Source of the DNA: Petrimonas mucosa
Lineage (GTDB): Bacteria; Bacteroidota; Bacteroidia; Bacteroidales; Dysgonomonadaceae
Direction: 5' to 3'
Length of the DNA: 64,000 nucleotides
Assembly: GCF_900095795.1 (NCBI RefSeq)
Contig: NZ_LT608328.1
Location: forward strand, 1,853,001 to 1,917,000
Under the pieces are notes generated by a model. The model did no database searches and had not been told where the DNA came from. It saw only the letters and a list, made by a program, of their open reading frames with translations. The translations under genes were made by a program, and so were the position numbers. Each line of letters begins with the position of its first letter. Positions within the stretch are counted from its first letter, which is position 1. Shown here piece by piece: positions 36,281 to 59,213 of the stretch.

Positions 36281-36330
36281 AAATGTCTAATTTCGAAAAA
36301 ATAAACAATTATGATACAATATAAATACCT

Positions 36331-38658: not shown

Positions 38659-38689
38659 CAAATAATCAAAAAACAAAAAGAATGCTATG

Positions 38690-40705: not shown

Positions 40706-43240
40706 ATGAAAAAGAATGGTTTACTCCTTACTTTGATATCGTTTATTGCATTGCTATCCTGCGGCAAGCCTGCTAAAAACAGTATAATTATTGCAACAGA
40801 TCTGACCACAGAACTTCGTGCTCCATCTTATCCATTGGTGACAGTTGACCCATATTTTAATGCATGGTCAAACGTCAACAACTTATATGATGATCAGGTA
40901 AGGCACTGGACTGAAAAAGAGTTTCCTCTTATAGGTGCACTTAGAGTAGACGGAACGATATACAGATTCATGGGTATTGAAAAAACACCCTTAAAAGCAA
41001 TTTTACCTACATCACACGAAGAAAAGTGGGAGGGTAAGTATACATTTCAACAACCTACCGGAGAAGGATGGAAATCATTAGACTATGATGATAGCTCATG
41101 GAAAACCGGACAATCAGCCTTTGGAACAGAAAACGAACCTAATCTATCAACACTTTGGCAAACAAAAGACATCTGGATACGCAGAACTTTTAATCTGGAT
41201 GATGATCTTAAGGACAGAGATATTTTCCTACACTATTCACACGATGATATTTTTGAACTATATGTAAATGGAATAGAGGTCGCAAATACCGGTTATTCAT
41301 GGAAATATGATGTGCAGACTGAACTTGGCGAGGAAGTTAAAGCTACGCTAAAAGAGGGTGAAAATATTATTACCGCACACTGCCACAATAGAACAGGTGG
41401 TGCCTATGTTGATTTTGGTCTTTACGAACTGGAATCAAACAAATCAACCTTGGCTAATACAGCTTTACAAAAATCGGTAAGTGTACTGCCAACGCAAACA
41501 GTATATAAATTTGATTGTGGAGATATAGAATTGGATTTAATTTTTACATCCCCACTACTACTTGATGATCTGGAATTGGTCTCTCGTCCTATAAGTTATA
41601 TTTCCTATCAGCTACGATCAAAAACCAATCAGCCTCATGAAGTTCAGATATATTTTGAAACAACGCCACAGTGGGCTGTTCACAATATCAGTCAGGCTGT
41701 AACTTTCGAAGAGATTGAAAATAATAGACTCAAATTTCTTAAAACGGGTACAGTGGAACAACCAATCTTAGAGAAAAAAGGTGATGATGTAAGAATTGAC
41801 TGGGGATATTTTTACATGGTAGGCCATAATGATAAGTCAACCAACATGAAATTTGGTGACTACTGGAAAGTCAAACAAGAGTTTAGTAGTACAGGAGCCG
41901 TTTCTGGAACTGAAACAGAAAGTTTGTCAGAAAAAATGAATAGTGAAAATATGACAGTATTGGCATATAGTAAAGATTTGGGAAAGGTCACAAATAATAT
42001 GACAACAGGTTATATCATGCTTGGATATGATGATATATTCTCAGTCAGATATTTCGATGAGGACTTAAAAGGTTATTGGACTAAAGATGGTACTGTTGAT
42101 ATATTCACTGTTTTTGATGATGCTGTAGATGAGTATTCTTCAATAATGAAAAGGTGTGATGAGTTTAATCACAATCTGTTCTCAGATGCAGAGAGGGTAG
42201 GTGGTCGCAAATATGCAGAGCTTGTCTCATTAGTATATAGACAAGCAATTGCAGCGCATAAATTGGTAAAGGATAAAGAAGGAAACCTGCTATTCTTTTC
42301 TAAGGAGAACAATAGTAATGGATCCATTGGTACAGTAGATATTACTTATCCATCATCACCCTTATTCCTGATCTATAATCCAGATTTGGTAAAAGCAATG
42401 CTTAATCCAATTTTCTATTACAGTGAAAGTGGAAAATGGACAAAACCATTTGCCGCACATGATGTAGGTACATATCCTATTGCGAATGGGCAGACTTATG
42501 GTGGTGATATGCCTATAGAAGAGTCGGGGAACGTTTTGATATTAACTGCAGCAATTTCTGAGATTGAAGGAAATGCTGATTATGCAGCCCAGCACTGGGA
42601 AACATTGACAACTTGGACTCAATATCTTAAAGAATATGGTCTAGATCCGGAAAATCAACTCTGTACTGATGATTTTGCAGGACATTTAGCGCATAACACA
42701 AACCTATCGATTAAGGCGATAATGGGAATAGCATCTTATGGAAAACTTGCCGGCATGTTAGGAAAGACAGATGTTGCTGAAGAGTATATGCAGATTGCAA
42801 AAGATATGGCAACTCAGTGGGAAACGATGGCAGATGATGGTAATCATTACAGGTTAACCTTTGACAGGCCTGGTACCTGGAGCCAAAAGTATAATATTGT
42901 TTGGGATAAGTTATTGAAGTTCAATATCTTTAATCCTAAGATTATTAAAAAAGAGATGGCTCTGTATAAAACATTACAGAACGAATATGGACTGCCTTTA
43001 GATAATAGGGCGACATACACTAAAACTGACTGGATAATGTGGACAGCTACTCTTTCAGGAGACAGATCTGATTTTGATGCATTAATAGATCCGGTTTATA
43101 AGTATGCGAATGAAACAACATCCCGTGTGCCCATCAGTGACTGGCATGATACGCATACTGCTGTGAGAATGAACTTTAAAGCACGTTCAGTGGTAGGTGG
43201 TTACTATATGAAACTATTAGAGGATTTATTGAAAAGATAA
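40706..43240 (+). CDS. GtaA-like lipoprotein (DUF5127/DUF4965/DUF1793)
   Basis: 844 aa; lipobox IALLSCGKP near residue 18. N-terminal block LRAPSYPLVTVDPYFNAWSN is the family hallmark; residues ~110-245 form an inserted jelly-roll carbohydrate-binding-like domain (WIRRTFNLDDDLKDRDIFLH...). The C-terminal half is an (alpha/alpha) barrel with HDVGTYPIANGQTYGGDMPI, EESGNVLILTAAI and DDFAGHLAHNTNLSIKAIMG. Relatives are annotated as fungal glutaminase A or uncharacterised PUL proteins; a glycosidase role is more likely here but inferred. Preceded by the decayed IS; an IS4 sits on its stop codon without changing the protein. Confidence 0.85.
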   Translation: MKKNGLLLTLISFIALLSCGKPAKNSIIIATDLTTELRAPSYPLVTVDPYFNAWSNVNNLYDDQVRHWTEKEFPLIGALRVDGTIYRFMGIEKTPLKAILPTSHEEKWEGKYTFQQPTGEGWKSLDYDDSSWKTGQSAFGTENEPNLSTLWQTKDIWIRRTFNLDDDLKDRDIFLHYSHDDIFELYVNGIEVANTGYSWKYDVQTELGEEVKATLKEGENIITAHCHNRTGGAYVDFGLYELESNKSTLANTALQKSVSVLPTQTVYKFDCGDIELDLIFTSPLLLDDLELVSRPISYISYQLRSKTNQPHEVQIYFETTPQWAVHNISQAVTFEEIENNRLKFLKTGTVEQPILEKKGDDVRIDWGYFYMVGHNDKSTNMKFGDYWKVKQEFSSTGAVSGTETESLSEKMNSENMTVLAYSKDLGKVTNNMTTGYIMLGYDDIFSVRYFDEDLKGYWTKDGTVDIFTVFDDAVDEYSSIMKRCDEFNHNLFSDAERVGGRKYAELVSLVYRQAIAAHKLVKDKEGNLLFFSKENNSNGSIGTVDITYPSSPLFLIYNPDLVKAMLNPIFYYSESGKWTKPFAAHDVGTYPIANGQTYGGDMPIEESGNVLILTAAISEIEGNADYAAQHWETLTTWTQYLKEYGLDPENQLCTDDFAGHLAHNTNLSIKAIMGIASYGKLAGMLGKTDVAEEYMQIAKDMATQWETMADDGNHYRLTFDRPGTWSQKYNIVWDKLLKFNIFNPKIIKKEMALYKTLQNEYGLPLDNRATYTKTDWIMWTATLSGDRSDFDALIDPVYKYANETTSRVPISDWHDTHTAVRMNFKARSVVGGYYMKLLEDLLKR

Positions 43241-43243
43241 TTT

Positions 43244-44543
43244 CATTAGTGTCCACTAAAAATTAGAAAATGTTCTTTGAAATTATTGATATACTATACT
43301 TTACAGGACTTTTTTCGGCGTGACGATTTGAATTTTTATTTTTGTTCTTTTTATTATGAAGGAACAATGAACAAAGGCAAATTCGTGTATGCTCAGATTG
43401 TAGAATTCTTACCTCAGCGAGTTTTTGACACCATTGTCTTAAAGTATGATGGTAACAGATATGTAAAACATTTTACATGTTGGAATCAACTTCTTGTAAT
43501 GGTGTTCGGGCAACTTACCAACCGTGACAGTTTACGTGATTTGATTGTGGCAATTGAAGCCCACAGCAGAAAAAGTTACCATCTCGGTTTTGGAAAAAGT
43601 GTTACCCGTAGTAATCTTTCAAAAGCAAATGAAAATCGCGATTATAGGATCTTTGAAGAATTTGCTTATTATCTCATCGGAGTTGCCAGACAAAAGCTGG
43701 AAAACAATGATTTTGAGATAAAAGGTAAAGTCTATGCTTTCGATTCCACAACCGTCGATTTATGCTTGTCAGTATTCTGGAGGGCTAAGTTTCGCAAGAA
43801 TAAGGGTGAAGTAAAAATCCACACTCTTCTGGATATAACCACACAAATACCGGTTTTTGTGCATATTACAACTGCTTCGGTTAATGACATGAATGCAATG
43901 GATGTAATTCCATATGAGGTGGGTGCCTATTATATCTTCGACAGAGGATATGTTGATTACACCCGTCTTTATAGGATTACAAAACTGGAATCTTCATTTG
44001 TAGTCAGAGCCAAAAAGAACCTGAAGTTTGAAGTTAAGTCTCATAATCCGGTAGATGAAACTACAGGTGTCATGACCGATCAGACAGGTTTCTTGAAAGG
44101 ATTCTACACATCTAAAGATTATCCTGAAAGCCTCAGGAGAGTTGCATTTTATGACAGGGATAAGAACACGACGCTCATATTCCTTACAAATAATTTTGAA
44201 CTCACAGCCGATCAGGTTGCAATGCTTTATAAGAACCGTTGGCAAATAGAACTGTTCTTCAAATGGATCAAACAGCATCTAAAGATCAAATCTTTTTGGG
44301 GAACTTCCCGGAATGCGGTTAGAATCCAAATATACAGCGCAATTATCGCATATTGTTTGGTTGCGATTGTAGGACACGATTTACAAATCAAGCGAACAAC
44401 TTACGAGATTTTGCAAATTTTAGGAATCTCTCTTTTAGATAGAACTCCTGTAAATGAACTATTTACCAATATAGATATCAATGATGTCAAAGATCGAAAT
44501 GATAATCAACTGACGCTCAATTTATTTTAAGTGGACAGTAGTG
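43244..44543 (+). mobile_element. IS4-family element after the DUF4965 gene
   Basis: 1300 bp. Ends CATTAGTGTCCACT (left) and, inverted, CACTACTGTCCACT (right); perfect 9-bp duplication AGATAATTT (43235-43243 and 44544-44552). The duplication contains the TAA stop of the upstream gene. Confidence 0.93.
43367..44530 (+). CDS. IS4-family transposase
   Basis: 387 aa from MNKGKFVYAQIVEFLPQRVF (the frame extends 30 codons upstream to 43277). DDE core: Asp in KVYAFDSTTVDLCLS, Asp in AYYIFDRGYVDYTRLY, and YKNRWQIELFFKWIKQ with the Y-R-E-K spacing of IS4. Intact. Confidence 0.93.
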   Translation: MNKGKFVYAQIVEFLPQRVFDTIVLKYDGNRYVKHFTCWNQLLVMVFGQLTNRDSLRDLIVAIEAHSRKSYHLGFGKSVTRSNLSKANENRDYRIFEEFAYYLIGVARQKLENNDFEIKGKVYAFDSTTVDLCLSVFWRAKFRKNKGEVKIHTLLDITTQIPVFVHITTASVNDMNAMDVIPYEVGAYYIFDRGYVDYTRLYRITKLESSFVVRAKKNLKFEVKSHNPVDETTGVMTDQTGFLKGFYTSKDYPESLRRVAFYDRDKNTTLIFLTNNFELTADQVAMLYKNRWQIELFFKWIKQHLKIKSFWGTSRNAVRIQIYSAIIAYCLVAIVGHDLQIKRTTYEILQILGISLLDRTPVNELFTNIDINDVKDRNDNQLTLNLF

Positions 44544-44572
44544 AGATAATTTATTAAATAAATAGCGGTAAG

Positions 44573-45733
44573 ATGCGTAATAGAAAAGAGATAAACAGGC
44601 AGTCCCGACGAAAAGCATTAATGACTTTAGGTGCTATTGCCGGAACATCTACTTTAGGAGTAATTGGTAATTCATACTCCAGATATGAGGACCAAATATT
44701 AAATAAAGAGAATTTGCCTCTTTTTTCTATCAGAGATATGAAGTCGGGACAACTCACTACATTTAACAATGAGACCAAACAAAAAGCTTTTCCTATACAA
44801 CCTGGTGAAAAAAAAGTATTGGTACAACATGATTCACCCGGTATAATCACCCGGCTTTGGATGACCACATCCGGGTGGTTTTGGGAAAATTGGGATGTGA
44901 GAGAAGAAAAGTGGCCTGATGCAACTATCCTGAAAAAACTTATTCTGAGAATTTATTGGGATGACAATAAATTTCCATCAGTGGAAGCTCCAATTGGAGA
45001 CTTTTTTGGGGTAGGTCACTGCGAATACAAGCACTTTGTTTCCAAATATTTAGGTATGTCAAGTGGTGGTTTTTATTGCTATTTCCCTATGCCATATAAT
45101 AAAGTAAAGATAGAGGTAGAGAATCTGCATGATAAATCAGTTCCACATGTTTTTCTAAATGCCAACTACACCTCATACAATGTTTTACCTGCAGATGCGG
45201 GTCGTTTTCACTGTATGTATAACTCCGGTACCAATGCAGGTTCTGAACCTCAGTATATAATGAAAACTAATGGTAAAGGTCATTTCGTAGGTTGTTGTGT
45301 ATCAATGCAGAGCTGGCTTCCAAACTACCTGGGATATCTTGAAGCACCTGAATATATTTATATTGATGATGGGTTTGAAGAGAAAAATCCGACAATTGTT
45401 GGTACAGGGTTAGAGGACTATTTTAATGGTGGGTGGTATTTCAGAGATGGAGAGTTCAATGCACCACTTCACGGGGTGCCGTTGAAAGACTCTTTACGAT
45501 CAATGATATCAATGTATCGTTTTCATGAAACTGATGCTATCTTTTTTGATGAATGTTTTACTATGTTGTTTCAATCACCGCGTCCACCGGAACATACAAG
45601 GGAGTTTAAGTATTCTTCTACTGCATACTGGTATCAGCAAACTGCATCTGAATTATTATTTAATTTACCATCTAAAGATAAACTGGTTGATCTTTATCGA
45701 ATCAGAGATACAGATCATCAGTCAATCCCTTAA
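44573..45733 (+). CDS. GH172 (DUF2961) family protein
   Basis: 386 aa. DUF2961, now GH172, is a double beta-jelly-roll family that includes alpha-D-arabinofuranosidases and a difructose-anhydride synthase. Family blocks: HDSPGIITRLWMTTSG, APIGDFFGVGHCEY, PTIVGTGLEDYFNGGWYF (catalytic Glu region) and HGVPLKDSLRSMISMYRFHE. The N-terminus has consecutive arginines before a hydrophobic stretch (SRRKALMTLGAIAGTSTLGV), consistent with Tat export. Spaced 12 nt from the GH127/146 gene. GH172 with GH127/146 points to arabinofuranosides (inference). Confidence 0.88.
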   Translation: MRNRKEINRQSRRKALMTLGAIAGTSTLGVIGNSYSRYEDQILNKENLPLFSIRDMKSGQLTTFNNETKQKAFPIQPGEKKVLVQHDSPGIITRLWMTTSGWFWENWDVREEKWPDATILKKLILRIYWDDNKFPSVEAPIGDFFGVGHCEYKHFVSKYLGMSSGGFYCYFPMPYNKVKIEVENLHDKSVPHVFLNANYTSYNVLPADAGRFHCMYNSGTNAGSEPQYIMKTNGKGHFVGCCVSMQSWLPNYLGYLEAPEYIYIDDGFEEKNPTIVGTGLEDYFNGGWYFRDGEFNAPLHGVPLKDSLRSMISMYRFHETDAIFFDECFTMLFQSPRPPEHTREFKYSSTAYWYQQTASELLFNLPSKDKLVDLYRIRDTDHQSIP

Positions 45734-45744
45734 AAATTCCAAGA

Positions 45745-47805
45745 ATGAAAAAAGTAAATTTACTATTTACCATCTTAACAGTGATGTTTTCACTGCACAC
45801 AACAGCACAGAACAATATGAAAGTTACAATAGTGGACAGGCCTGATAAAAGTAGAGAGAATAACAATTATATCACTAATAGGGCCCCACTGCAGCCGTTA
45901 AGTTTCATCAAGCTTCCTGTTGGTGATATAAAACCGGAGGGTTGGACATTAAAGCTGCTTGAACTCCAAAAAGATGGTTTAAACGGCCACCTTGGTGAAA
46001 TTAGTGCATGGCTTGACAAGGAAAACAATGCATGGCTAGGAACAGGCAGTGATTATGGTTGGGAAGAGGTGCCATATTGGCTTAAGGGGTATGGTAATAT
46101 GGCTTATATTCTCAATGACAAAGAGATGATAGAAGAAACAAAAACTTGGTTGGAAGCAGTTTTCAAGAGTCAGAGAGAAGATGGTTATTTTGGACCTTAC
46201 ATCGAGAAAAATGGTAGACCTGACCTTTGGGGAAATATGATTATGACCTGGTGTCTGCAATCATATTATGAGTTCTCAGGGGACGAAAGAGTAATTGATC
46301 TATTAACCAATTATTTCAAATGGCAGCTTAATCTTCCGGAAGATATGTTTTTGAAAGATTATTGGGAAAATAGTCGCGGGGGCGATAATCTCCTTAGTAT
46401 TTACTGGCTTTATAACATAACAGGTGATGATTTTTTAATTGAACTGGCAGAGAAAACTCACAAAAACACAGCAAACTGGCGTCAGAGATCTACATTGCCT
46501 AATTGGCACAATGTAAATATTGCACAAAGTTTCAGAGAGCCTGCCACTTATTATATGTTATCGGCAGACTCGGCAGATCTAATATCCACCTATAATGTAC
46601 ACCATTTGATACGTAACATATTCGGTCAAGTGCCGGGAGGGATGTTTGGAGCAGATGAAAATGCTAGAATGGGGTATATTGATCCGCGACAGGGAACAGA
46701 AACCTGCGGTTTTGTTGAACAGATGGCATCGGACGAAATATTGTTGAGATTAACAGGCGATCCTTTCTGGGCAGAGCATTGTGAAAATGTAGCATTTAAT
46801 TCTTATCCTGCATCGATGATGCCAGATCTGAAATCATTACGTTACATAACCTCGCCAAATCACACTATAAGTGACTCCAGAAATCATCATCCGGGTATAG
46901 ATAACAGAGGACCATTCCTGGCAATGAACCCATTCAGTAGCAGATGTTGTCAGCATAATCATGGACAGGGCTGGCCATACTATATTGAACATCTTGTATT
47001 AGCATCACCAGATAATGGAATTGCGGTTGCAATGTATGGACCTTGTACAGCAAATGTAAAAGTTGCCGATGGAAAAGAGGTGAAGATCATTGAAGATACA
47101 AATTATCCTTTTGAAGAATCGGTTAAATTTACAATTCAAACCAATGTAAAAGTTGCTTTTCCTCTCTATCTAAGAATTCCTACATGGACTGATAACCCTT
47201 CAATTACTGTGAATGGTGTTAAGTTGGATCTATTACTTGAAAATGGGAAGTATGCACGAATTGAGAAGGAGTGGCAAAATGGAGATGAAGTTGTATTTAA
47301 TATTCCGATGAAATTATCTCAATCGGTATGGCATGTAAACCAGAATAGTAGAAGCATAAATTATGGACCATTGACCTTTTCATTGAAGATCAAGGAAAAC
47401 TATGAGAAAGTAAGCAGCATTGAAACTGCAATTGGTGATTCAAAATGGCAGAAAGATGCTGATCAGGAGAAGTGGCCTAGTTATGAAATATATCCGGGAA
47501 GTGAATGGAATTATGCCCTGGAAATAGATGATTTGTTACCTATTGAAAAGAACTTCAAGGTTGTAAAAACAACATGGCCTGCTGATCATTATCCATTCAC
47601 CACAGAGAGTCCGCCTATTCAGATAATTGCAAAAGGGAAGAGAGTTATAGGCTGGGGAATAGATCAGTATGGACTTACAGCTGAATTGCCCATAAAGGAG
47701 AATATTAAATTTGAAAAGGAGACTGATACTATTACACTAATTCCTATGGGTGCAGCAAGGTTAAGAATATCTGCCTTCCCTGTATACTTAAAAAAGATCG
47801 AATAA
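45745..47805 (+). CDS. GH127/GH146-type beta-L-arabinofuranosidase-like enzyme
   Basis: 686 aa with signal peptide MKKVNLLFTILTVMFSLHTT then AQ. (Alpha/alpha)6 barrel plus beta domains. The zinc-thiolate site of HypBA1-like enzymes is present: E319-x-C321 in GTETCGF and C401-C402 in SSRCCQHNHGQGW; the second of these regions holds the cysteine nucleophile. A likely acid/base is E305 in GADENAR. Early block GHLGEISAWLDKENNAW and CQHNHGQGWPYYIEHL are typical. It releases beta-L-arabinofuranose or a related sugar; exact linkage unknown. Second of a GH172-GH127-GH5 run. Confidence 0.9.
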   Translation: MKKVNLLFTILTVMFSLHTTAQNNMKVTIVDRPDKSRENNNYITNRAPLQPLSFIKLPVGDIKPEGWTLKLLELQKDGLNGHLGEISAWLDKENNAWLGTGSDYGWEEVPYWLKGYGNMAYILNDKEMIEETKTWLEAVFKSQREDGYFGPYIEKNGRPDLWGNMIMTWCLQSYYEFSGDERVIDLLTNYFKWQLNLPEDMFLKDYWENSRGGDNLLSIYWLYNITGDDFLIELAEKTHKNTANWRQRSTLPNWHNVNIAQSFREPATYYMLSADSADLISTYNVHHLIRNIFGQVPGGMFGADENARMGYIDPRQGTETCGFVEQMASDEILLRLTGDPFWAEHCENVAFNSYPASMMPDLKSLRYITSPNHTISDSRNHHPGIDNRGPFLAMNPFSSRCCQHNHGQGWPYYIEHLVLASPDNGIAVAMYGPCTANVKVADGKEVKIIEDTNYPFEESVKFTIQTNVKVAFPLYLRIPTWTDNPSITVNGVKLDLLLENGKYARIEKEWQNGDEVVFNIPMKLSQSVWHVNQNSRSINYGPLTFSLKIKENYEKVSSIETAIGDSKWQKDADQEKWPSYEIYPGSEWNYALEIDDLLPIEKNFKVVKTTWPADHYPFTTESPPIQIIAKGKRVIGWGIDQYGLTAELPIKENIKFEKETDTITLIPMGAARLRISAFPVYLKKIE

Positions 47806-47863
47806 TATAATGGTATATTTGATGAATAGATATTGATTGAAGTAACCCAATAAAAAACAGAGT

Positions 47864-48961
47864 ATGAAAAGAGTCCTTTATGTAGCAATACTTATATTTT
47901 CGATAAACATTATCTACTCCTGCAATCAGGCTAATAATGAAAATACGGAAGATATAACAGTAAGAGAAGTATGGAATGCACAGAAAGCCAATGAATGGTA
48001 TGCGCAACAACAATGGTTGAGAGGTTCAAATTTCATTCCCAGCACTGCAATTAATCAATTAGAGATGTGGCAGGAGGATACATTTGATCCTGAGACAATA
48101 GACAGAGAGTTAGGTTTTGCAGAAAGCATAGGGTTTAATTCTATGCGTGTTTATCTGCATCATTTGGCTTGGCAGATTGATCCGGATGGTTTTAAAAACA
48201 GAATTAATGATTATCTTGAAATTGCAGAGAGTCATGGAATATCTACAATGTTTGTTATTTTTGATGACTGCTGGAATCCTACATATGAAGCAGGGGTGCA
48301 ACCTGGGCCTAAACCAGGTATTCATAATTCAGGATGGTTAAGGGATCCTGGTGATTCAATTTATATCAATCCGGATATGATTACTAATCTAGAGTTATAT
48401 GTCAAAGATATACTGACCACTTTTGGTGATGATGAGCGAATTGTTTTGTGGGACCTATATAATGAACCGGGTAACTCAGGATATGGTAATAAAAGCATGC
48501 CACTATTGGAAAAAGTTTTTACTTGGGGTAGGGAAGTGAATCCTTCACAGCCTTTATCCTCCGGAGTATGGAGCTGGAATTTAGAAGAAATATCTGAGTA
48601 TCAGTTGAATAATTCAGATGTAATAACATATCACAATTATGGGAGTGCTGAAAATCATCAGAGCATGATAGATACATTAAGAACATTAACGGAAAAACCG
48701 TTGATATGTACAGAGTATATGGCTCGTACAAGAAACAGCACATTTCAGAATACGATGCCTATATTGAAATCTGAGAATATCGGTGCATATAACTGGGGTT
48801 TGGTAGCAGGTAAAACCAATACGATATATGCCTGGGATACTCCTATGCCAGACGGATCTGAACCAACTGTTTGGTTTCATGATATTTTTCGTAATGATGG
48901 TACTCCCTATAGTCGGGAGGAGGTTGATTTAATCAAGGAATTGACCGGCAAAAGCAATTAA
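47864..48961 (+). CDS. GH5-like clan A glycoside hydrolase, lipoprotein
   Basis: 365 aa; lipobox INIIYSCNQ near residue 20. TIM-barrel hydrolase of clan GH-A: acid/base E201 in LWDLYNEPGNSG and nucleophile E284 in PLICTEYMARTRNST, with the early block LGFAESIGFNSMRVYLHHLA. Subfamily cannot be assigned by eye; relatives are called cellulase-family or 1,4-beta-xylanase proteins. Encoded between GH127/146 and the HTCS, so part of the same PUL. Confidence 0.85.
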   Translation: MKRVLYVAILIFSINIIYSCNQANNENTEDITVREVWNAQKANEWYAQQQWLRGSNFIPSTAINQLEMWQEDTFDPETIDRELGFAESIGFNSMRVYLHHLAWQIDPDGFKNRINDYLEIAESHGISTMFVIFDDCWNPTYEAGVQPGPKPGIHNSGWLRDPGDSIYINPDMITNLELYVKDILTTFGDDERIVLWDLYNEPGNSGYGNKSMPLLEKVFTWGREVNPSQPLSSGVWSWNLEEISEYQLNNSDVITYHNYGSAENHQSMIDTLRTLTEKPLICTEYMARTRNSTFQNTMPILKSENIGAYNWGLVAGKTNTIYAWDTPMPDGSEPTVWFHDIFRNDGTPYSREEVDLIKELTGKSN

Positions 48962-48991
48962 TATATAATACTATATCGATTTTTTTAAAAA

Positions 48992-51900
48992 ATGATTAGG
49001 TTGGTACATCTGCTTTTTATAGTGTTCTTTTTAGCAGTTTCAAGCAGTAGCCTGGCATCAGTAGCAAATGCCGGCTACTCTTTTAAACATTACAATACTG
49101 ATAACGGGTTGTCGCAAAATACCGTAAGAACCATAATGCAGGACAACATGGGATTTATGTGGTTTGGCACGAAAGATGGACTAAATAGGTTTGACGGTAC
49201 CACATTCAAACTCTTTAAGTTTTCTCCTGATGGAGAGCTATGTGATAATGTTTTCCACAGAATAATTCAGGACAGAAATAACAATATCTGGGTATCAACT
49301 GAAAATGGGGTGTATACATATGATGTTATTAAGGAGGTCTTTCATGTATTTGATAAAAAAACAACCGATAATTTATCTGTAAATGGAGTTGTTACAGATA
49401 TGGTTATTGATGATAGTGGAGATATCTGGATGTCGGTTGAAAGTAAGGGCATCTTCCACTATAACCTTGAAGAAGATGTTCTTAAATTTTATACAATACC
49501 AATTGTAGAAGATGGATTGAAAATGGTAAGCCTTTATCCTTCCAAAAACAAAGGTGTATGGGTATTCAGATACTCATCTATTATTCTGCATATTGATAAA
49601 AATAAAGAGGAGATTACTGAATTCAATCTGGAAGATGACCCTGAGCTATTATTGCAAACAGGTGAAGTGCTTGATGTTTATTCAGATCAAAGCAACATTT
49701 TACTTGTCGCTACTTCGCAAAAAGGGCTGGTTGCTATTAATACGGTTAATAAGACTCACAATGTAATTTTGGATAAAGATGCTAATGGACAACCAATATT
49801 TGTCAGGACAATTGAGAGAGTTGATCCAAATACACTTTGGATTGGAACAGAGTCAGGTATTTTTATTATTAAATCAAACAGTGGTGAAGTAATAAATTTA
49901 CGTCATAATCCCGCTATTCCCAATTCTATTTCTGACAATGCCATCTATTCAATATATAGAGACAAAGATGGGGGTGTTTGGGTCGGTTCTTATTTTGGAG
50001 GTGTAGATTACTACTCAAATGTGAACAGAAATTTTGAATTGTTCTACCCTGTATTAAATGAACAGAGCCTAAAGGGAAAAAGAGTAAGAGAGTTTTGTAA
50101 TGCACCTGATGGAAATATCTGGATAGGTACAGAAGATGGAGGTCTTAATCTGTTTGATCCCAAAAACAACTCCTTTCTTCCTTTACCGCAAACTTTAAGA
50201 TCTTTATACTCCAATATCCATACATTGTTTCAGGATGGTGATTTATTATGGATTTCCACATACTCTAAAGGGTTGAACAAATACAATACTGTAACAGGGG
50301 AATTGGTTACTTACGTTAAGTCGGATGACCCTCACTCAATATCACACAACAGTACATTTGCAATGTGTAAGGACAGACAGGGGCACTTATGGATTGGTAC
50401 TTTATCGGGAGTTGATATTTATGATGAAGAAAAAGATCAATTTAATAGAGTTGAGATACTTAAAGGGATCTCTATCCAGGATATTTTTGAAGATAGTAAG
50501 GGTTATATTTGGATATCTACATTTTTAGATGGTGTATATAGATTTGACCCATCTAATAACGAATGGAAGATATTTCTTCATGATGCTTCGCTAGATGGTT
50601 CATTACCATATAACAAACCGACTTCTATATTTGAAGATAGCAAGAGGAGACTGTGGGTAACAACACAGGGAGGGGGATTTGGACAGTTCGATTATAAAAC
50701 GGAGAAATTTACAACCTATAATACATCAAATGGACTTAATAATGATGTGGTCTATCAAATTCAGGAAGATGTTGAAGGTAAGCTATGGTTATCTACTAAT
50801 CAAGGTCTGGTTAGATTTGATCCGGAAAAAGAATTTTTTGTGAACTATACAGTAGATAATGGTCTTAAATCAAATCAATTTAACTATAAGTCAAGTTTTA
50901 AGGATTCAAGTGATAATATATATTTTGGCTCATTAGATGGATTCATTCGCTTCAATCCTACTGAATTGTTATCTTTTAATATAAAGAGTGAAGCACTCTT
51001 CACAGATCTTTTTATAAACAATCGAAGAATAAGTCCCTCTGTTAACAATTCCATTCTGAAGCAAAGCATAATTTACACTGATGAGATTCAACTACCATAT
51101 AATCAAAATTCAGTTAGTTTCAATTATACCATCTTAGACTATTCAGGTTTAAGTAAAAACAACATATACTATAAACTTGAAGGTTTTGATGAAGATTGGA
51201 TAAAGTCAACCGCCGGACAACAGTTAATATACTCTAACTTGAAGCCAGGTAAATATAAACTGCATCTTGCGTCCGGTGGTTATGACAGTAATGAGCAAAT
51301 AACAGTAAATAGGACTTTATCAATAATAATAAAGCCGCCATATTGGTTAACAGGTTGGGCATATCTTATTTATTCTCTAATAATACTTGGTGGCTTGTTT
51401 CTGTCATATAGATACTTGCACAATCGTGTCAAACTAAAACGTGTAAAAGAGATGAGAGACTTTGAGCAATTGAAGGAGAGAGAGTTGTTTCGCTCAAAGA
51501 TCAACTTCTTTACAAACGTTGCTCATGAAATAAGAACTCCACTCACATTGATAAAGGCTCCTCTTGATCATGTCCTTATGAAAGAGTCAGTTTCTGATAG
51601 TATAAAAGATAATCTGCTGATTATGCAAAAAAATACTGATAGATTGCTATACTTGACAAATCAGCTGCTAGACTTTCGTAAAACGGAATCGGACTCATTT
51701 GTTCTTAGTCTTAAAGCTCATAACGTAACTGAATTGATTAAGGAGTCGCAGCTGCGTTTTACCCCTCTAGCCATACAAAAAGGAGTAGAGTTTGAATTTA
51801 TACTGCCTGACTCAGATATGTACGTTCAAATTGATAAGGATGCTTTTTTAAAAATTGTAAGCAATCTATTAAACAATGGTATTAAGTATTGTGAAAGTTA

Positions 51901-52993
51901 TGTCAGAGTTAAGGCTTTTATAAATAATGACACACAGCAATTTCATCTATTGACTGAGAATGATGGAGAATTGATTCCTCAGGAGTATGAAGAGGAGTTA
52001 TTTAAACCCTTTGTACAATTTGGTGCCAGTGAAGTAGTGAATGGTTCAGGTACAGGTATAGGTTTAGCTCTTGCAAGTTCTCTGGCTCAGCTGCATAATG
52101 GAACTTTGAGACTGGAAAATGATTCTGTAACAAACAGATTTCATTTGACCTTACCAGTTGGTGATATCAGCGTAATGGAAAAGAAGCCCGAAATTGTTGA
52201 AAGCAATGAACTATATGTAAGTTACAATGATGCTGAATCAAATACAAAGAAAACAATTGTGTTGGTTGATGATGACTTGGAGCTATTGAATTTTGAAAGC
52301 AACCTACTTAATGAATATTACAATGTTTTATTGGCAAGAAACGGGAGTGAGGCACTGGATGTGCTGCGTGAAAACAACGTCAATCTGGTGGTTTGCGACA
52401 TCATGATGCCCGGGATGGATGGTTTTGAATTTACAAGGAGGATAAAGTCGGATATCGAATTCAGTCACATTCCGGTAATTCTGCTCACAGCAAAGGTGAA
52501 TGTGGAGTCGAAGGTTCAAGGTTTCGAGATTGGTGCGGATGCCTATATAGAAAAACCCTTTTCGCTGGAGGTGTTGATGGCTCAAATTGCCAACCTGCTG
52601 CAGAACCGGGAGAAATTGCGTGAAACTTTCCTGAAACATCCATATATCGGGGCCAATAGTGTTGCGCTCACCAAATCGGATGAGGAGTTTATCCGGAAAC
52701 TGCATGCAATCGTGGTGGAGAATATAGACAATTCAGGCTTTATCGTGGAGGAGATCGCAGAACATTTTAATATGAGCAGGGCCAGTTTTTACCGGAAAAT
52801 CAAGGGTGTTCTCAATCTTACGCCCAACGAGTATATCAGGGTGGAGCGTTTGAAAAGGGCGGCACAACTGCTAAAAGAGAAGACATATAAGGTAAATGAG
52901 ATCTGTTACATGGTCGGGTTCAACTCACCTTCCTATTTTTCGAAATGCTTTCAACAGCAATTCGGGGTCTTGCCGAAGGATTTTGAGCCATAA
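48992..52993 (+). CDS. Hybrid two-component system sensor/regulator (HTCS)
   Basis: 1333 aa one-protein glycan sensor. Signal peptide (residues 1-27); two seven-bladed Reg_prop propellers ~30-680 with repeats such as MWFGTKDGLNRFD and NIWIGTEDGGLNLFD; Y_Y_Y domain ~700-775; one membrane helix ~785-808; HisKA with phospho-acceptor H845 (NVAHEIRTPLTLIKAPLDH); HATPase with NNGIKYCE and GTGIGLALASSL; receiver with phospho-acceptor D1136 (VVCDIMMPGMDG); AraC DNA-binding domain ~1235-1333. It should bind an oligosaccharide in the periplasm and activate PUL transcription. GC jumps near 52330 (residue ~1113): counted rows give 27% and 32% before, 47% and 47% after, suggesting a recombinant gene. Confidence 0.95.
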   Translation: MIRLVHLLFIVFFLAVSSSSLASVANAGYSFKHYNTDNGLSQNTVRTIMQDNMGFMWFGTKDGLNRFDGTTFKLFKFSPDGELCDNVFHRIIQDRNNNIWVSTENGVYTYDVIKEVFHVFDKKTTDNLSVNGVVTDMVIDDSGDIWMSVESKGIFHYNLEEDVLKFYTIPIVEDGLKMVSLYPSKNKGVWVFRYSSIILHIDKNKEEITEFNLEDDPELLLQTGEVLDVYSDQSNILLVATSQKGLVAINTVNKTHNVILDKDANGQPIFVRTIERVDPNTLWIGTESGIFIIKSNSGEVINLRHNPAIPNSISDNAIYSIYRDKDGGVWVGSYFGGVDYYSNVNRNFELFYPVLNEQSLKGKRVREFCNAPDGNIWIGTEDGGLNLFDPKNNSFLPLPQTLRSLYSNIHTLFQDGDLLWISTYSKGLNKYNTVTGELVTYVKSDDPHSISHNSTFAMCKDRQGHLWIGTLSGVDIYDEEKDQFNRVEILKGISIQDIFEDSKGYIWISTFLDGVYRFDPSNNEWKIFLHDASLDGSLPYNKPTSIFEDSKRRLWVTTQGGGFGQFDYKTEKFTTYNTSNGLNNDVVYQIQEDVEGKLWLSTNQGLVRFDPEKEFFVNYTVDNGLKSNQFNYKSSFKDSSDNIYFGSLDGFIRFNPTELLSFNIKSEALFTDLFINNRRISPSVNNSILKQSIIYTDEIQLPYNQNSVSFNYTILDYSGLSKNNIYYKLEGFDEDWIKSTAGQQLIYSNLKPGKYKLHLASGGYDSNEQITVNRTLSIIIKPPYWLTGWAYLIYSLIILGGLFLSYRYLHNRVKLKRVKEMRDFEQLKERELFRSKINFFTNVAHEIRTPLTLIKAPLDHVLMKESVSDSIKDNLLIMQKNTDRLLYLTNQLLDFRKTESDSFVLSLKAHNVTELIKESQLRFTPLAIQKGVEFEFILPDSDMYVQIDKDAFLKIVSNLLNNGIKYCESYVRVKAFINNDTQQFHLLTENDGELIPQEYEEELFKPFVQFGASEVVNGSGTGIGLALASSLAQLHNGTLRLENDSVTNRFHLTLPVGDISVMEKKPEIVESNELYVSYNDAESNTKKTIVLVDDDLELLNFESNLLNEYYNVLLARNGSEALDVLRENNVNLVVCDIMMPGMDGFEFTRRIKSDIEFSHIPVILLTAKVNVESKVQGFEIGADAYIEKPFSLEVLMAQIANLLQNREKLRETFLKHPYIGANSVALTKSDEEFIRKLHAIVVENIDNSGFIVEEIAEHFNMSRASFYRKIKGVLNLTPNEYIRVERLKRAAQLLKEKTYKVNEICYMVGFNSPSYFSKCFQQQFGVLPKDFEP

Positions 52994-53105
52994 AAGGGTT
53001 TTTGAGATGGTTTTTACACTTTTTGAGCAGTTTCCTCACATTTGTTCCTTTTTAAATGACTATTTTCGTGGTGCCAAACACATAAATTTTTAAATTAGTA
53101 TCAAT

Positions 53106-54917
53106 ATGAAATCAAAATTAGTCCTATTTATTTTGCTTGCAGCAACATTTTCACTGTCCGCCCAGTGGAAACCGGCGGGTGACAGGATAAAGACACGTTG
53201 GGCAGCAGAGATTGATGTGAACAACGTATTGCCTGAATATCCCCGGCCCATCATGGAGCGTTCGCAGTGGCAAAACTTGAACGGGTTATGGAATTATGCC
53301 ATCCTGCCGGTAGGAAAACAGGAACCTACATCGTTCGATGGGAAGATTCTGGTTCCGTTTGCCGTTGAGTCTAGTCTATCGGGAGTGCAGAAACGAGTGG
53401 GGGGTGACAACGAACTGTGGTACCATCGCGAGTTTACCGTTCCATCCAACTGGAAAAACAACAGGATACTGCTCCATTTCGGAGCTGTCGACTGGAAAGC
53501 TGATGTCTGGGTGAACGATATCAAGGTGGGACAACACACCGGAGGCTATACACCGTTTTCTTTCGATATTACACCTGCTTTGAAGAGTGGAGCCAATAAA
53601 CTTGTCGTAAAGGTATGGGATGGAACCGATGATGGATATCAACCGAGAGGTAAACAGGTGAACAACCCGCACGGCATATGGTATACCCCGGTGAGCGGTA
53701 TCTGGCAGACTGTATGGTTGGAACCTGTTCCTGAAAAATATATCGAGAATGTGAAGATTACTCCCGACATCGACAAAAACATCATCAGCGTCAAGGCATG
53801 CGTCAACGGTTCTGCCCCGTCAGACAAGGTTGTGGTGAAGGTGATGGCAGGTTCACAGGTTGTCGCCACCGGTCAATCGATCAATAATCAGCCGGTTGAG
53901 GTCTCCATGCCTGCCAATGCCAGGTTATGGTCGCCCAACGATCCTTTCCTCTATGACCTTGAAGTGACCTTGGTTGAGGGTGCAAAAACGGTGGATAAGG
54001 TAAAGAGCTACACCGCAATGCGTAAATTCTCCACCAAGCGCGATGATAAGGGAATTGTTCGTCTTCAGTTGAACAACAAGGATCTATTCCAGTTTGGCCC
54101 GCTCGATCAGGGATGGTGGCCCGACGGACTCTACACCGCTCCTACCGACGAAGCACTGAGGTATGATGTCGAAAAAACCAAGGATTTTGGCTTCAACATG
54201 ATCCGCAAACATGTGAAGGTGGAGCCTGCCCGTTGGTACATGCATTGCGACCAGCTCGGTATCATCGTGTGGCAAGACATGCCTAACGGCGACAAGAGTC
54301 CCGAGTGGCAGATGCACGAATATTTCACCGGTGTTGAAAGATTGCGTTCGCCCGAGTCGGAAGCCAATTACCGAAAAGAGTGGAAAGAGATCATCGATTA
54401 CCTCTATTCCTATCCTTCAGTTGGTGTTTGGGTTCCGTTCAACGAAGCCTGGGGTCAATTCAAGACAAAGGAGATCGTAGAGTGGACCAAACAGTATGAT
54501 CCCTCACGCCTGGTGAACCCGGCCAGTGGTGGCAACCATTATCATGTTGGGGATATGCTCGACCTGCATAACTATCCGCAACCCAGGATGTACCTCTATG
54601 ACGGCCAGCGGGCAACCGTCCTCGGCGAATATGGTGGCATCGGTTGGGCAAACAAGGAACATCTGTGGGAACCCGACCGTAACTGGGGCTATGTACAGTT
54701 CAACAGCTCGGAGGAGGTGACCAACGAGTATGTTAAATATGCTGAACAGCTGAAACAGCTGATCCGCCAAGGATTCTCCGCAGCAGTATACACCCAGACC
54801 ACCGACGTGGAGGTTGAAGTGAATGGACTGATGACCTATGACAGGGCCGTAGTTAAAATTGACGAAGGTCGGGTTCGGAAAGTTAATCAGGAGATATGCA
54901 ATATATTGAACAACTGA
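53106..54917 (+). CDS. GH2 family glycoside hydrolase
   Basis: 603 aa with signal peptide ending SLSAQ. Jelly-roll (residues ~45-220), Ig-like sandwich and TIM barrel from ~310. Catalytic acid/base E447 in WVPFNEAWGQF and nucleophile E508 in VLGEYGGIGW. GH2 includes beta-galactosidases, glucuronidases, mannosidases and alpha-L-arabinopyranosidases; the short form without extra C-terminal domains and the PLDQGWWPDGLY motif are typical of uncharacterised Bacteroidota GH2. First gene of the compact downstream cluster, 112 nt after the HTCS. Confidence 0.92.
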   Translation: MKSKLVLFILLAATFSLSAQWKPAGDRIKTRWAAEIDVNNVLPEYPRPIMERSQWQNLNGLWNYAILPVGKQEPTSFDGKILVPFAVESSLSGVQKRVGGDNELWYHREFTVPSNWKNNRILLHFGAVDWKADVWVNDIKVGQHTGGYTPFSFDITPALKSGANKLVVKVWDGTDDGYQPRGKQVNNPHGIWYTPVSGIWQTVWLEPVPEKYIENVKITPDIDKNIISVKACVNGSAPSDKVVVKVMAGSQVVATGQSINNQPVEVSMPANARLWSPNDPFLYDLEVTLVEGAKTVDKVKSYTAMRKFSTKRDDKGIVRLQLNNKDLFQFGPLDQGWWPDGLYTAPTDEALRYDVEKTKDFGFNMIRKHVKVEPARWYMHCDQLGIIVWQDMPNGDKSPEWQMHEYFTGVERLRSPESEANYRKEWKEIIDYLYSYPSVGVWVPFNEAWGQFKTKEIVEWTKQYDPSRLVNPASGGNHYHVGDMLDLHNYPQPRMYLYDGQRATVLGEYGGIGWANKEHLWEPDRNWGYVQFNSSEEVTNEYVKYAEQLKQLIRQGFSAAVYTQTTDVEVEVNGLMTYDRAVVKIDEGRVRKVNQEICNILNN

Positions 54918-56050
54918 TCTATATTTTAGTTTTCACTCTCATAATTACTGCCTGCCAGCCAGGACAGGACAATCAAGAAGAGTATTACATAGAGTGGGAT
55001 AAAACCTCCCTCTTCCGCATAGCAGAGGAGGGAGGTTATCCCCGTTTATGCCGTTTAAACGACGGTACGTTATTGGTAGCATATGAGAATAGGCGAGGTG
55101 ATGTGGTTGTAAAGAAGAGCCGTGATGAAGGTGTCACCTGGGATGACCCTGTAACTGCATATGAGAAGTTTGAATATGTGGATCCACACTCTTCCTCCTT
55201 TACAACAGTTAATATTGCCAACCCCGAAATGGTTCAGTTGATCAATGGAGATATTTTGCTGGCATGTAACTTACGACCCGTGAAGGAGGGAATCTACCCC
55301 TTTTCAATTGCGTTGAAAAGAAGTGTCGATATGGGAAGAACATGGTGTCCGGCACAAATACTCTATAGGGCTGCCCCTTTTTTTGGGGATGGTTGTTGGG
55401 AACCCTCTTTTCTGATCTTGCCAGATGGGACGATTCATATCTATTTCGCAAATGAATTACCTTACCGCAACTCGGATGAACAAGAAATCTCCATGATACA
55501 ATCTGTAGATCACGGTCATACATGGAGTGAAAAGCCATCAACCGTCAGTTTCAGGCAGGGTCATCGGGATGGGATGCCTGTAGCCATCCATGACGGCACG
55601 AATATCTATGTGGCTATTGAAGATAACCTGTCGGGACAATTCAAACCATACATCATTCGCAGTTCTGTTTACAATCCATGGGGCAATGCCGTGCCGGGAG
55701 ATTCACCTTACCGCTATGCTGCCTTAAGGTCTGTGCTACCTGATACGGTATATGCCGGAGCTCCCTATCTTATTCGAACCGAGAGTGATGTTTATGTTCT
55801 CTCCTATCAGACTACACACAACAGAGGCTCAGACTGGGAACGATCGACTATGGAGGTGCAGGTGAGCTCTACACCATCGGATTTCCATAATCCGTCCCGA
55901 CCTTTCGTTGTTCCGCTTTCGAGGGAAGCCAAATGGAATTCATTGGCCGATCTAGGAGGTAATACAATTGCAGCACTGACTTCCACAAACTTCGAAGGCG
56001 GAAAAATTGGAATCTGGATGATTAAAGGGAAAATAAAAAAAATTGAATGA
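54896..56050 (+). CDS. BNR-fold exo-glycosidase (GH93- or sialidase-like) lipoprotein
   Basis: 384 aa; lipobox LIITACQPG near residue 20. Six-bladed propeller with Asp-box repeats SRDEGVTWDD, SVDMGRTWCP and SVDHGHTWSE. Blocks ENRRGDVVVKKS, CWEPSFLILPDGTIHIYFAN and GHRDGMPVAIHDG resemble GH93 exo-arabinanases as much as GH33 sialidases; the Arg triad of true sialidases is not clear. Neighbouring GH43 arabinanase-like gene favours an arabinan role (inference). It overlaps the end of the GH2 gene by 22 nt and the next gene by 4 nt (ATGA), so the cluster is translationally coupled. Confidence 0.82.
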   Translation: MQYIEQLIYILVFTLIITACQPGQDNQEEYYIEWDKTSLFRIAEEGGYPRLCRLNDGTLLVAYENRRGDVVVKKSRDEGVTWDDPVTAYEKFEYVDPHSSSFTTVNIANPEMVQLINGDILLACNLRPVKEGIYPFSIALKRSVDMGRTWCPAQILYRAAPFFGDGCWEPSFLILPDGTIHIYFANELPYRNSDEQEISMIQSVDHGHTWSEKPSTVSFRQGHRDGMPVAIHDGTNIYVAIEDNLSGQFKPYIIRSSVYNPWGNAVPGDSPYRYAALRSVLPDTVYAGAPYLIRTESDVYVLSYQTTHNRGSDWERSTMEVQVSSTPSDFHNPSRPFVVPLSREAKWNSLADLGGNTIAALTSTNFEGGKIGIWMIKGKIKKIE

Positions 56051-57084
56051 AAATAAGTTGTCAGATTATTCAACTGCTGTTTTTACTTCTCTTCCTGTCA
56101 GGATGTAAAACTGCTGGAGGACTCAATGAGACTCCTTCACCCCAGGACGAGAACATGGTCTACCGGAATCCGGTGGTCGACCGGAGCCTCCCCGATCCGA
56201 CGGTAATCCGGGCAAAGGATGGTAACTTCTACCTCTATGCCACCGAAGATACCCGAAATACTCCCATTTTCCGCTCTCCGAACCTGGTGGACTGGACCTT
56301 CGTGGGTACCGCCTTTACCGATCAGACCCGCCCCAGCTTTGAGCCCAAGGGGGGAATCTGGGCGCCGGACATCAACTATATCAACGGCACCTACGTACTC
56401 TATTACTCCATGTCGGTCTGGGGTGGTGAGTGGACCTGCGGAATTGGCGTAGCAACTGCCGACAGCCCCGAGGGACCCTTCACCGATCGCGGCAAACTGT
56501 TTCGCAGCAACGAGATTGGCGTACAGAACTCCATCGACCCCTTCTACATTGAAGAGAAGGGAAAGAGGTACCTCTTCTGGGGCAGCTTCCGTGGCATCTA
56601 TGCCATCGAACTTGCTGACGACGGATTGAGCGTGAAGCCGGGTGCCGAGAAGCGACAGATTGCCGGTACGGCTTATGAGGGGGTGTACATCCATAAGCGA
56701 AATGGGTACTACTATCTGTTCGCTTCGGTGGGAAGCTGCTGCGAGGGGCTAAAGAGTACCTACACAACCGTCGTCGGCCGTTCAAAAAACCTGTTTGGTC
56801 CCTATACCGACAAGCAGGGACGTTCTATGATGGAGAACCATCATGAGCTGCTGATCCAGCGGAACAGCCGTTTTGTGGGTACTGGCCATAACTCGGAGAT
56901 CGTACAGGATAGCAAGGGGCAGGACTGGATGTTCTACCACGCCTACTCGGTGGAGAATCCGAAGGGGCGCCGTCTGATACTGGACCAGATCAGGTGGAAA
57001 GAGGGATGGCCCTATGTGGTAGATAACAGCCCATCGTTTATGGCCCCAAGACCAATTTTTAACAATCAAAACAATATCAAATGA
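56047..57084 (+). CDS. GH43 arabinanase-like lipoprotein
   Basis: 345 aa; lipobox LLFLSGCKTAG (Cys20). Five-bladed propeller: general base D50 in RSLPDPTVIRAKDGNFYLYA, KGGIWAPDINYINGTYVLYY, NSIDPFYIEEKGKRYLFWGS (Asp), acid Glu in TAYEGVYIHKRNGYYYLFAS, then VGSCCEGL and GTGHNSEI. The ...YYLF-S-G-CC-G block is characteristic of endo-1,5-alpha-L-arabinanase-type GH43. ATGA overlaps at both ends link it to the BNR and toroid genes. Probably cuts arabinan at the cell surface. Confidence 0.9.
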   Translation: MKISCQIIQLLFLLLFLSGCKTAGGLNETPSPQDENMVYRNPVVDRSLPDPTVIRAKDGNFYLYATEDTRNTPIFRSPNLVDWTFVGTAFTDQTRPSFEPKGGIWAPDINYINGTYVLYYSMSVWGGEWTCGIGVATADSPEGPFTDRGKLFRSNEIGVQNSIDPFYIEEKGKRYLFWGSFRGIYAIELADDGLSVKPGAEKRQIAGTAYEGVYIHKRNGYYYLFASVGSCCEGLKSTYTTVVGRSKNLFGPYTDKQGRSMMENHHELLIQRNSRFVGTGHNSEIVQDSKGQDWMFYHAYSVENPKGRRLILDQIRWKEGWPYVVDNSPSFMAPRPIFNNQNNIK

Positions 57085-59132
57085 AAAGATACCCTAAATT
57101 CCTTTGTGTGCTGTTTGCGCTACTGATCTGGAGTACACTACAGGCAACGGCCCAAGTGGGAGAGAATCAAATCAGCTCATCCATCGCAATAAAAACACCT
57201 GGTAACCCCGCGATACGCTACTCCCTGCAGGGGGTAGAGAGAGGTAAAACCACCCGTCTGAAGGCCGACCGGGAGATTCCAGTGGTGATTACACGAACGG
57301 TCAAGGAGAACCGGGTCTCCTCAACTCTTCAAGGCACCGAACATGTGATAGAGGTGGAGATCAAGGCCAAAGAAGATCTTTACTTCAACTTCAAGCAGTG
57401 GTTCGATACCCGGTATGCCCATGACGACTGCCAGTTCTACATGCCCGGTTTCTGGTATCGCCGTAACCTTCGCTCACCCAAGGAGGCCCCATCGTTCCAT
57501 ACTTCCGACAGCTGGACGGTACGGGAGGATAGGCTGAGTGTGCCGATGACCGCCATTTTTAATGAGAAGTCGGGTGCCTACACGTCGGTTATGCGAAAGG
57601 ACGATTTCAAGCATGATGCACTGACCACCCACAAGGAGGGTGAAGTGATCATTTCGGGCATCACCTCCATCGGCTACACCGGTTTCGAAAACAGGGAGGG
57701 CGATGCCATGCTCTCATTCGGATACCCATACCAGGAGACTCCGAAGAGCTATATCCGCAAACTTACACTGGCTCCTTCAGTCGAGGCATTCCAATTCCTG
57801 GAAAAAGGGAAATCGATCAGGTTGACCTGGATGGTGAAATCGGGTAAAGCAACCGATTTTTCAGAGCTTATCCGCAAGTCGTGGGAGTACTGTTACGACA
57901 CTTGGCGTCCTGAACCGGTCACCATATCTTTCAGCGATGCGTTTGTAAAGGAGATCCTTTCACAATATTTTACCCAGAGCTTTGTGGAGGACTATCCCCT
58001 GAAGTTCACCTCCGGTGAGGGACTTCTCGTGGCAACCAGCGAAAGCGTGCCGCGTGCGGAGATCGGTTTCGTGGGTCGGGTACTGCTCAATGCTTACAAC
58101 GCACTTGAGTATGGGTTACAGCACAACCGGCCGGAACTGGTCACCAACAGCTATACCGTTTTCGAGAGCTACCTGCAACATGGTTTTACCCCCAACGGTT
58201 TTTTCCGTGAACATGTCTACTACGACAAGGAGACCGAGGCAGCGAACTTAAGCATCCGGCGTCAATCGGAGGGGCTCTACGCAATGATGCATTTCCTTCA
58301 GTTCGAGAAGGAGAATGGCCGGAACCATCCGGAATGGGAAGCGAAACTGCAAACCTTGCTCGACCGTGTCCTGCTGTTGCAAAACGAGGATGGCAGTTTC
58401 CCGAGGAAGTTCAACGACCGTCTCGCCGTCAAGGATGCGAGCGGCGGAAGTACCCCGTCGGCCACCCTTCCCCTGGTGATGGCATACGCCTATTTCAAGC
58501 AACCGAAATATCTTGATGCCGCCAAGAAGACAGCCGATTACCTGGAACGTGAGATCATATCGAAAGCAGATTATTTTTCCTCTACCCTCGACGCCAACTG
58601 TGAAGATAAGGAGGCATCGCTCTATGCGGCAACTGCAATGTATTACCTGGCACTGAACTCTACGGGTGAGGAACAACAATGGTATGCCGACCTTTGTCGT
58701 AAAGCCTCCTACTTTGCCCTCTCCTGGTATTACATGTGGGATGTGCCGTTCGCAAAGGGGCAGATGATAGGTGACATCGGACTGAAAACCAGGGGATGGG
58801 GCAACGTTTCGGTTGAAAACAACCATATCGACGTCTTCATCTTCGAATTTGGGTCGGTCCTCAACTGGCTATCGGAGAGATATAGTGAACCCCGCTTCAG
58901 CAATTTCGTGCGGGTAATCTCGTCATCAATGCGCCAGCTGCTGCCGTTTGAGGGACACATGTGCGGAATATCCAAGATCGGCTATTACCCGGAGGTGGTG
59001 CAACATACCAACTGGGATTACGGCAAGAACGGGAAAGGGTTTTATAACGACTACTACGCCCCGGGCTGGACTGTGGCCTCACTCTGGGAGCTGCTCTCTC
59101 CCGGTCGCGCCGAGAAATTTTTTTCAAAATAG
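57081..59132 (+). CDS. Predicted (alpha/alpha) toroid glycosidase-like protein, intact paralog
   Basis: 683 aa with signal peptide ending TLQATAQ. N-terminal ~260 residues beta-rich, C-terminal ~400 helical. Conserved with the protein at 10863: STLDANCEDKEASLYAA, WYYMWDVPFAKGQMIGD, VENNHIDVFIFEFG and APGWTVASLWELLSPG. The paired acidic residues in CEDKE and NNHIDV would suit a glycosidase active site but no family name can be given. It starts on the ATGA of the preceding GH43; its paralog also adjoins a GH43. Periplasmic. Function unknown. Confidence 0.8.
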   Translation: MKRYPKFLCVLFALLIWSTLQATAQVGENQISSSIAIKTPGNPAIRYSLQGVERGKTTRLKADREIPVVITRTVKENRVSSTLQGTEHVIEVEIKAKEDLYFNFKQWFDTRYAHDDCQFYMPGFWYRRNLRSPKEAPSFHTSDSWTVREDRLSVPMTAIFNEKSGAYTSVMRKDDFKHDALTTHKEGEVIISGITSIGYTGFENREGDAMLSFGYPYQETPKSYIRKLTLAPSVEAFQFLEKGKSIRLTWMVKSGKATDFSELIRKSWEYCYDTWRPEPVTISFSDAFVKEILSQYFTQSFVEDYPLKFTSGEGLLVATSESVPRAEIGFVGRVLLNAYNALEYGLQHNRPELVTNSYTVFESYLQHGFTPNGFFREHVYYDKETEAANLSIRRQSEGLYAMMHFLQFEKENGRNHPEWEAKLQTLLDRVLLLQNEDGSFPRKFNDRLAVKDASGGSTPSATLPLVMAYAYFKQPKYLDAAKKTADYLEREIISKADYFSSTLDANCEDKEASLYAATAMYYLALNSTGEEQQWYADLCRKASYFALSWYYMWDVPFAKGQMIGDIGLKTRGWGNVSVENNHIDVFIFEFGSVLNWLSERYSEPRFSNFVRVISSSMRQLLPFEGHMCGISKIGYYPEVVQHTNWDYGKNGKGFYNDYYAPGWTVASLWELLSPGRAEKFFSK

Positions 59133-59213
59133 GGTAGATTGTAGTTGAAATGATCTAATTTTGTCTTACTTGGTTAGACCGGATACTCATTATAATATAA
59201 AAAAGAGAATAAC

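Follow-up and report, generated by a model that had tools for sequence, protein, structure and literature searches.

The HTCS gene at positions 48992-52993 of the window (the whole 64,000-nucleotide stretch of the Petrimonas mucosa chromosome analyzed here, from genome G000) is, judging by its sequence, a hybrid: its sensor-kinase part comes from another genus, and its DNA-binding part is native. The gene stands at the right end of a foreign tract of about 24.8 kb (27519..52323, forward strand, five insertion-sequence sites included; blastn and gene identities), which takes in part of a GH43 gene, one complete PUL and the sensor-kinase part of the HTCS and has a hybrid gene at either end. We consider it very probable that a double crossover with Fermentimonas-like DNA replaced the resident locus and left the recipient with a donor sensor, native output and native targets. 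The main genomes of comparison were G002 and G009, which belong to the same genus as G000, and G036, a Fermentimonas-like member of another genus (code g11).

The protein has periplasmic Reg_prop and Y_Y_Y domains, HisKA, HATPase_c, a receiver and an AraC-type HTH in one chain (Pfam, all hits above cut-off), and the phospho-acceptor motifs VAHEIRTPL (H845), CDIMMPG (D1136) and EKPF (K1188) are all present. The foreign part (codons 1-1110; 48992..52321, forward strand) covers the signal peptide, Reg_prop propellers, Y_Y_Y, the TM helix, HisKA, HATPase and receiver elements beta1-alpha1, as assigned by Pfam, identities, GC3 and a tree of the N part. The native part (52325..52993, forward strand; identities, GC3 and a tree of the C part) covers the rest of the receiver, with D1136 and K1188, and the AraC-type DNA-binding domain.

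An earlier note on this DNA had pointed to a sharp GC break inside the receiver, and the break is real. The six values that it quoted for 60-nt rows, 0.32 (51901), 0.27 (52201), 0.32 (52261), 0.47 (52321), 0.47 (52381) and 0.45 (52621), were all exact on recount. Raw GC is noisy upstream of the junction (0.45 in row 52021, 0.40 in row 52141). Third-codon GC (GC3) is 0.30 up to about codon 1107-1110 and 0.56 after it; in 40-codon bins it is mostly 0.17-0.45 up to codon 1120, with one outlier of 0.53, and 0.53-0.57 from there through to the gene end. When the same measure was applied to 96 HTCS genes (mean 0.01, sd 0.047), the step across this junction, +0.25, was the largest and the next was 0.12. 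The earlier note had named the same step in all orthologs, like congruent phylogenies, as a result that would refute its reading; the step was looked for in the HTCS orthologs and was absent from all of them. GC3 in the G036 ortholog is 0.27 on both sides of the point, and donor-type orthologs are low throughout; in the G002 ortholog it is 0.45 before and 0.52 after (0.55 in the last 200 codons before the junction), and same-genus orthologs are high on both sides.

The two parts of the gene have different parentage. At the amino acid level, residues 1-1085 are 88% identical to G036 and 56% to G002/G009, whereas residues 1121-1333 are 94% identical to G002/G009, 88% to G006 and 73% to G036. Separate phylogenies of the two halves, a check proposed from the outset, are incongruent at full support: the nucleotide tree of the N part places G000 with G036/L034 (support 100/100), and that of the C part places it with G002, G009 and G006 (100/99). 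AU tests reject congruence both ways, for the N part forced with G002/G009 (dlnL 694, p 1.8e-9) and for the C part forced with G036 (dlnL 149, p 1.8e-41), and protein alignments give the same outcome as nucleotide ones. The named loci that group with G036 are Fermentimonas MAGs (L033, L038). Comparison with genomes lacking the PUL points the same way: the same-genus G002 and G009, which do not have this PUL, have the native C-terminal part. The GC break is thus a recombination junction. G036 shares only about 85% DNA identity with the foreign part of the HTCS, so the real donor species lies outside the sampled genomes.

Two other sources of incongruence were ruled out. A conservation gradient does not account for it, since the N part exceeds the C part in similarity to G036, the opposite of nearly all other pairs; among 276 ortholog pairs, clearly greater likeness in the N part than in the C part is seen in only four, those of G000 with four Fermentimonas-type sequences. 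Nor does gene conversion by a paralogous gene of this genome, in which the best other HTCS reaches only 38% identity across its length and 50% across the C-terminal part. Another HTCS gene on the same chromosome but outside the window (G000:C1:921529-925485), 38% identical, contains one in-frame TAA.

The right crossover was placed by a single-breakpoint likelihood over 1377 informative sites, with its best position at 52322-52324 (codon 1111; LLR 126) and a 2-lnL interval of 52318..52330 (forward strand). Residues 1079-1333 were modelled with AlphaFold (mean pLDDT 83.6); in this model, DSSP assigns alpha1 to residues 1096-1106 and beta2 to 1111-1115, and therefore the joint lies at the alpha1/beta2 border of the receiver, where beta2 starts. 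The kinase specificity of a regulator in two-component pairs is determined mainly by alpha1 and the beta5-alpha5 loop (PMC2991266). Alpha1 of the hybrid receiver is the donor's, as is the kinase, and the loop motif KPFS is common to both parents. This natural joint suggests a place where such sensors can be joined in nature, behind the kinase-docking helix alpha1, so that kinase and alpha1 stay matched, as do the output face and the DNA-binding domain, and it offers engineers a second place to try beside the linker.

The left crossover falls in the GH43 gene 27186-28148 (27509..27532, forward strand, best at 27518-27521; LLR 52.7, identity to G036 and nucleotide profile) and gives a hybrid GH43 with 58% amino acid identity to G036 left of the break and 91% right of it. 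Inside the tract the window is 80-92% identical to G036 by blastn; outside, it is like G002/G009 (72-83% in the main aligned stretches). Both marks of an intragenic recombinant are seen, namely incongruent trees on either side of the HTCS breakpoint and a second crossover in shared sequence, the GH43 gene, at the far end of the tract. The earlier note had supposed that homologous recombination swapped the sensor half of a resident HTCS. This reading holds, and the sensor half is foreign, with breakpoints mapped at both ends of the tract, but the exchanged piece is larger, starting in GH43 and taking in the whole PUL. Donor and recipient proxies among the sampled genomes are only distantly alike near the crossovers and would thus be a poor substrate for RecA-type recombination.

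Some 20 related genomes and MAGs share a constant frame around a variable PUL at this locus. Its left side is a DUF349 gene, in contigs that extend that far, and its right side is HTCS and GH2, in many cases with BNR, GH43 and epimerase. The order is susC_II-susD_II-GH43-HTCS in G002/G009 and GH43-susC_I-susD_I-DUF3823-GtaA-DUF2961-GH127-GH2C-HTCS in G036; the window has the G036 gene set plus remnants of the G002 set on the left (promoter, IS3-family element, susD_II end). Synteny with the PUL-less sisters and with the donor type both fit an exchange. The foreign genes, all on the forward strand, are a type I susC in three pieces (28254..34444; tblastn pieces and junction sequences), an intact type I susD, 97% identical to G036 (34454..36280), a DUF3823 gene with an insertion sequence at its 5' end (37972..38658), a GtaA/DUF4964-DUF5127 enzyme (40706..43240) and DUF2961, GH127 and GH2-C-like genes (44573..48961). 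From the GH127, GH43, DUF2961 and GH2 families, we presume that the substrate is an arabinose-containing plant glycan. What remains of the resident PUL (25255..27141, forward strand) is an IS3-family element directly behind the native promoter, in place of the lost susC_II, followed by the last third (about 170 codons) of susD_II. Between the DUF349 gene and this promoter, at 21998-25027, are two reverse transcriptase ORFs of the group II intron type.

To the right of the HTCS, GC3 and identities mark GH2, BNR, GH43, an unknown gene of 683 aa and aldose epimerase (53106..60371, forward strand) as native. Their GC3 is 0.58-0.66, BNR excepted (0.42), and the GH2 is 91% identical to G002 and 79% to G036. 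The suggestion that the rest of the receiver and the AraC domain match the native downstream region holds, as native GC3 and identity run on through these genes. The 683-aa gene (57081-59132) has no Pfam match; it is present in G002, G009 and G030 and absent from the loci of G036 and G006.

Candidate operators of the HTCS flank the tract. One, TTTGA-N16-TTTGA, lies to its left in the native susC_II promoter (25205..25230, forward strand) and is found in the same place in G002, at 1869265; the other lies to its right, before the native GH2-BNR-GH43 genes (53001..53026, forward strand), and is a 21-bp pair of the kind seen in orthologous gaps. In the HTCS-GH2 gaps, a TTTGA-N16-WTTGA direct repeat at exactly 21 bp is present in 13 of 19 orthologous loci, and none of the other spacings from 15 to 31 bp occurs more than twice. 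HTCS operators predicted in Bacteroides are direct repeats averaging 21 bp (PMC3878776), a form that the candidate sites match in sequence. The repeats at 25205 and 53001 are each followed by a TAnnTTTG-like box, at positions as in G002. Both candidate sites are outside the foreign tract and are native, like the DNA-binding domain. Within the GH127 gene, at 47089, there is a further 21-bp pair, which was rejected as an operator because it is at chance level.

G036 has the same repeat form at its GH2 gene and, by eye, a degenerate copy before its GH43 gene, both in DNA that was left untransferred. The HTH1 helix SRASFYRK is identical in all proteins compared, and HTH2, SPSYF(S/T)K, has a Ser/Thr difference between native and donor. 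Operators and HTH contact residues thus hardly differ between donor and native types, so that the targets were probably not rewired and those of the two types look interchangeable. The idea that a foreign sensor now drives native targets is consistent with the native origin of the candidate operators and the DNA-binding domain; however, a changed choice of targets is not implied, given the shared operator architecture and HTH residues. The arrangement shows how an imported PUL can come at once under native operators.

From the observed tract, crossovers, parentage, intact motifs and positions of the operator-like repeats, a likely course of events can be drawn. DNA from a Fermentimonas-like relative in another genus would have entered by conjugation or a similar route and recombined inside the GH43 gene (27.52 kb) and inside the HTCS receiver (52.32 kb). 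In this way the recipient would have acquired the transporter genes, enzymes, glycan sensor and kinase of the donor while retaining its own DNA-binding domain and the two candidate operators. The hybrid HTCS would bind the donor's glycan ligand via its propeller domains, H845 would autophosphorylate, and the phosphate would pass to D1136 of a receiver that has the donor alpha1 and is native in its remaining part. The phosphorylated hybrid would then activate the native promoters at 25.2 and 53.0 kb.

It is also possible, though rather doubtful, that PUL exchange left the hybrid HTCS as a dead by-product, one that does not signal or controls nothing useful. On the one hand, the foreign susC is cut by two insertion sequences, one at about 28316-29963 in the signal peptide (codon ~21) and the other at about 32825-34235, behind codon ~973, some 67 codons short of the end; the resident susC is deleted; and signalling failed in an engineered chimera whose joint was further downstream (BT1754 1-808 with BT0366 1302-1420; PMC3404733). 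On the other hand, the hybrid ORF is full length (1333 aa) with its catalytic motifs kept, and its rate is not accelerated: dN of the foreign part to three outgroups is 0.110/0.142/0.248, no higher than that of G036 (0.113/0.145/0.250), which argues against relaxed selection. Moreover, a native operator-like repeat and the downstream genes at 53-60 kb are intact. With the imported susC cut and the resident susC gone, uptake by this locus has probably been lost unless another SusC serves, and after such later decay, which includes the IS3 element behind the native promoter, the HTCS may now control little besides the 53-60 kb genes.

It was insertion sequences of the host that split the foreign susC after import. 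The five insertion-sequence sites (28316-44543) represent several transposase families, in or between imported PUL genes, with target-site duplications at some of them; susC is cut twice, and the other PUL genes are nearly intact. About 18 copies of the DUF4372-type element at 32860-34200 occur in the genome. Most fall into two classes, one ~100% and the other ~88% identical, a pattern that suggests a recent burst.

The double crossover is also to be weighed against other histories of the junction. Import of the whole locus long ago, with the C-terminal part later converted back to native or ameliorated in place, has only a slight chance of being correct. Back-conversion would result in the same junction, and the order of events is not readable from one genome; however, native GC3 and identity continue through the downstream genes, so one crossover on this side suffices, and amelioration cannot lift amino acid identity to G002 to 94%. 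That an assembly chimera or contamination joined two genomes is very improbable: a tract so similar to another genus would be expected from it, but the contig is a single finished one, both junctions are in frame inside genes, and the tested insertion sequences within the tract have up to six further copies, ~100% identical, elsewhere in the chromosome, which marks the tract as part of this genome. Finally, although most pairs show higher conservation in the C-terminal part than in the sensor, a difference in composition between sensor and receiver plus AraC common to every HTCS gene is ruled out as the cause of the GC step by the 95 control genes without it, and the step is carried by third codon positions.

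In Bacteroides ovatus/xylanisolvens, PULs are exchanged between core "node" genes by homologous recombination, with transfer by ICE-driven chromosomal conjugation (PMC8845570). In both cases a PUL enters a conserved place via recombination in flanking shared genes with no mobile-element carrier; here, however, the exchange is between genera, and the PUL's own regulator holds one of the crossovers, which divides it into a donor sensor-kinase part and a native DNA-binding part. As at a node, an accessory PUL lies between conserved flanking genes, and its ends are donor-like. In the agr and com quorum-sensing loci, sensor parts are exchanged along with signal genes. There too the variable recognition part travels with cognate genes while the output part stays, but those loci have separate kinase and regulator genes and peptide signals, and ours encodes one glycan-sensing fusion protein.

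The closest engineered counterpart is the BT1754/BT0366 chimeric HTCS, which works with its joint in the cytoplasmic linker, directly behind the TM helix (PMC3404733). In both, one HTCS supplies the sensor and a second the output, so as to drive the targets of the second; unlike the engineered joint, the natural one is inside the receiver. Evolution did as engineers building chimeric sensors do and left a precisely mapped inter-genus chimera. PUL exchange between flanking genes is already known, and an HTCS hybrid of natural origin with its joint within the receiver is a new variation on it; no report of a natural HTCS recombinant or of such a joint was found in the open-licence literature, where absence is not proof.

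Orthologous HTCS genes contain further breaks near the TM-linker-HisKA border, which are candidate sensor swaps only. In G002/G009 (loci L008, L009), the sequence is G030-like before and G006-like after codons 812-827 (G000 numbering; LLR 68), just past the TM helix, where the working engineered chimera was joined (PMC3404733), and in G019/L039 a candidate break lies at codons ~822-876 (G000 numbering; LLR up to 58). We tentatively propose, at somewhat less than even chances, that the HTCS is the standing right-hand border of a swappable PUL slot, in which cassettes bring their own sensor, the DNA-binding domain and operators stay, and breaks at the linker or in the receiver provide a repeated natural route of PUL replacement. 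Across loci, sensor type is not strictly tied to susCD type.
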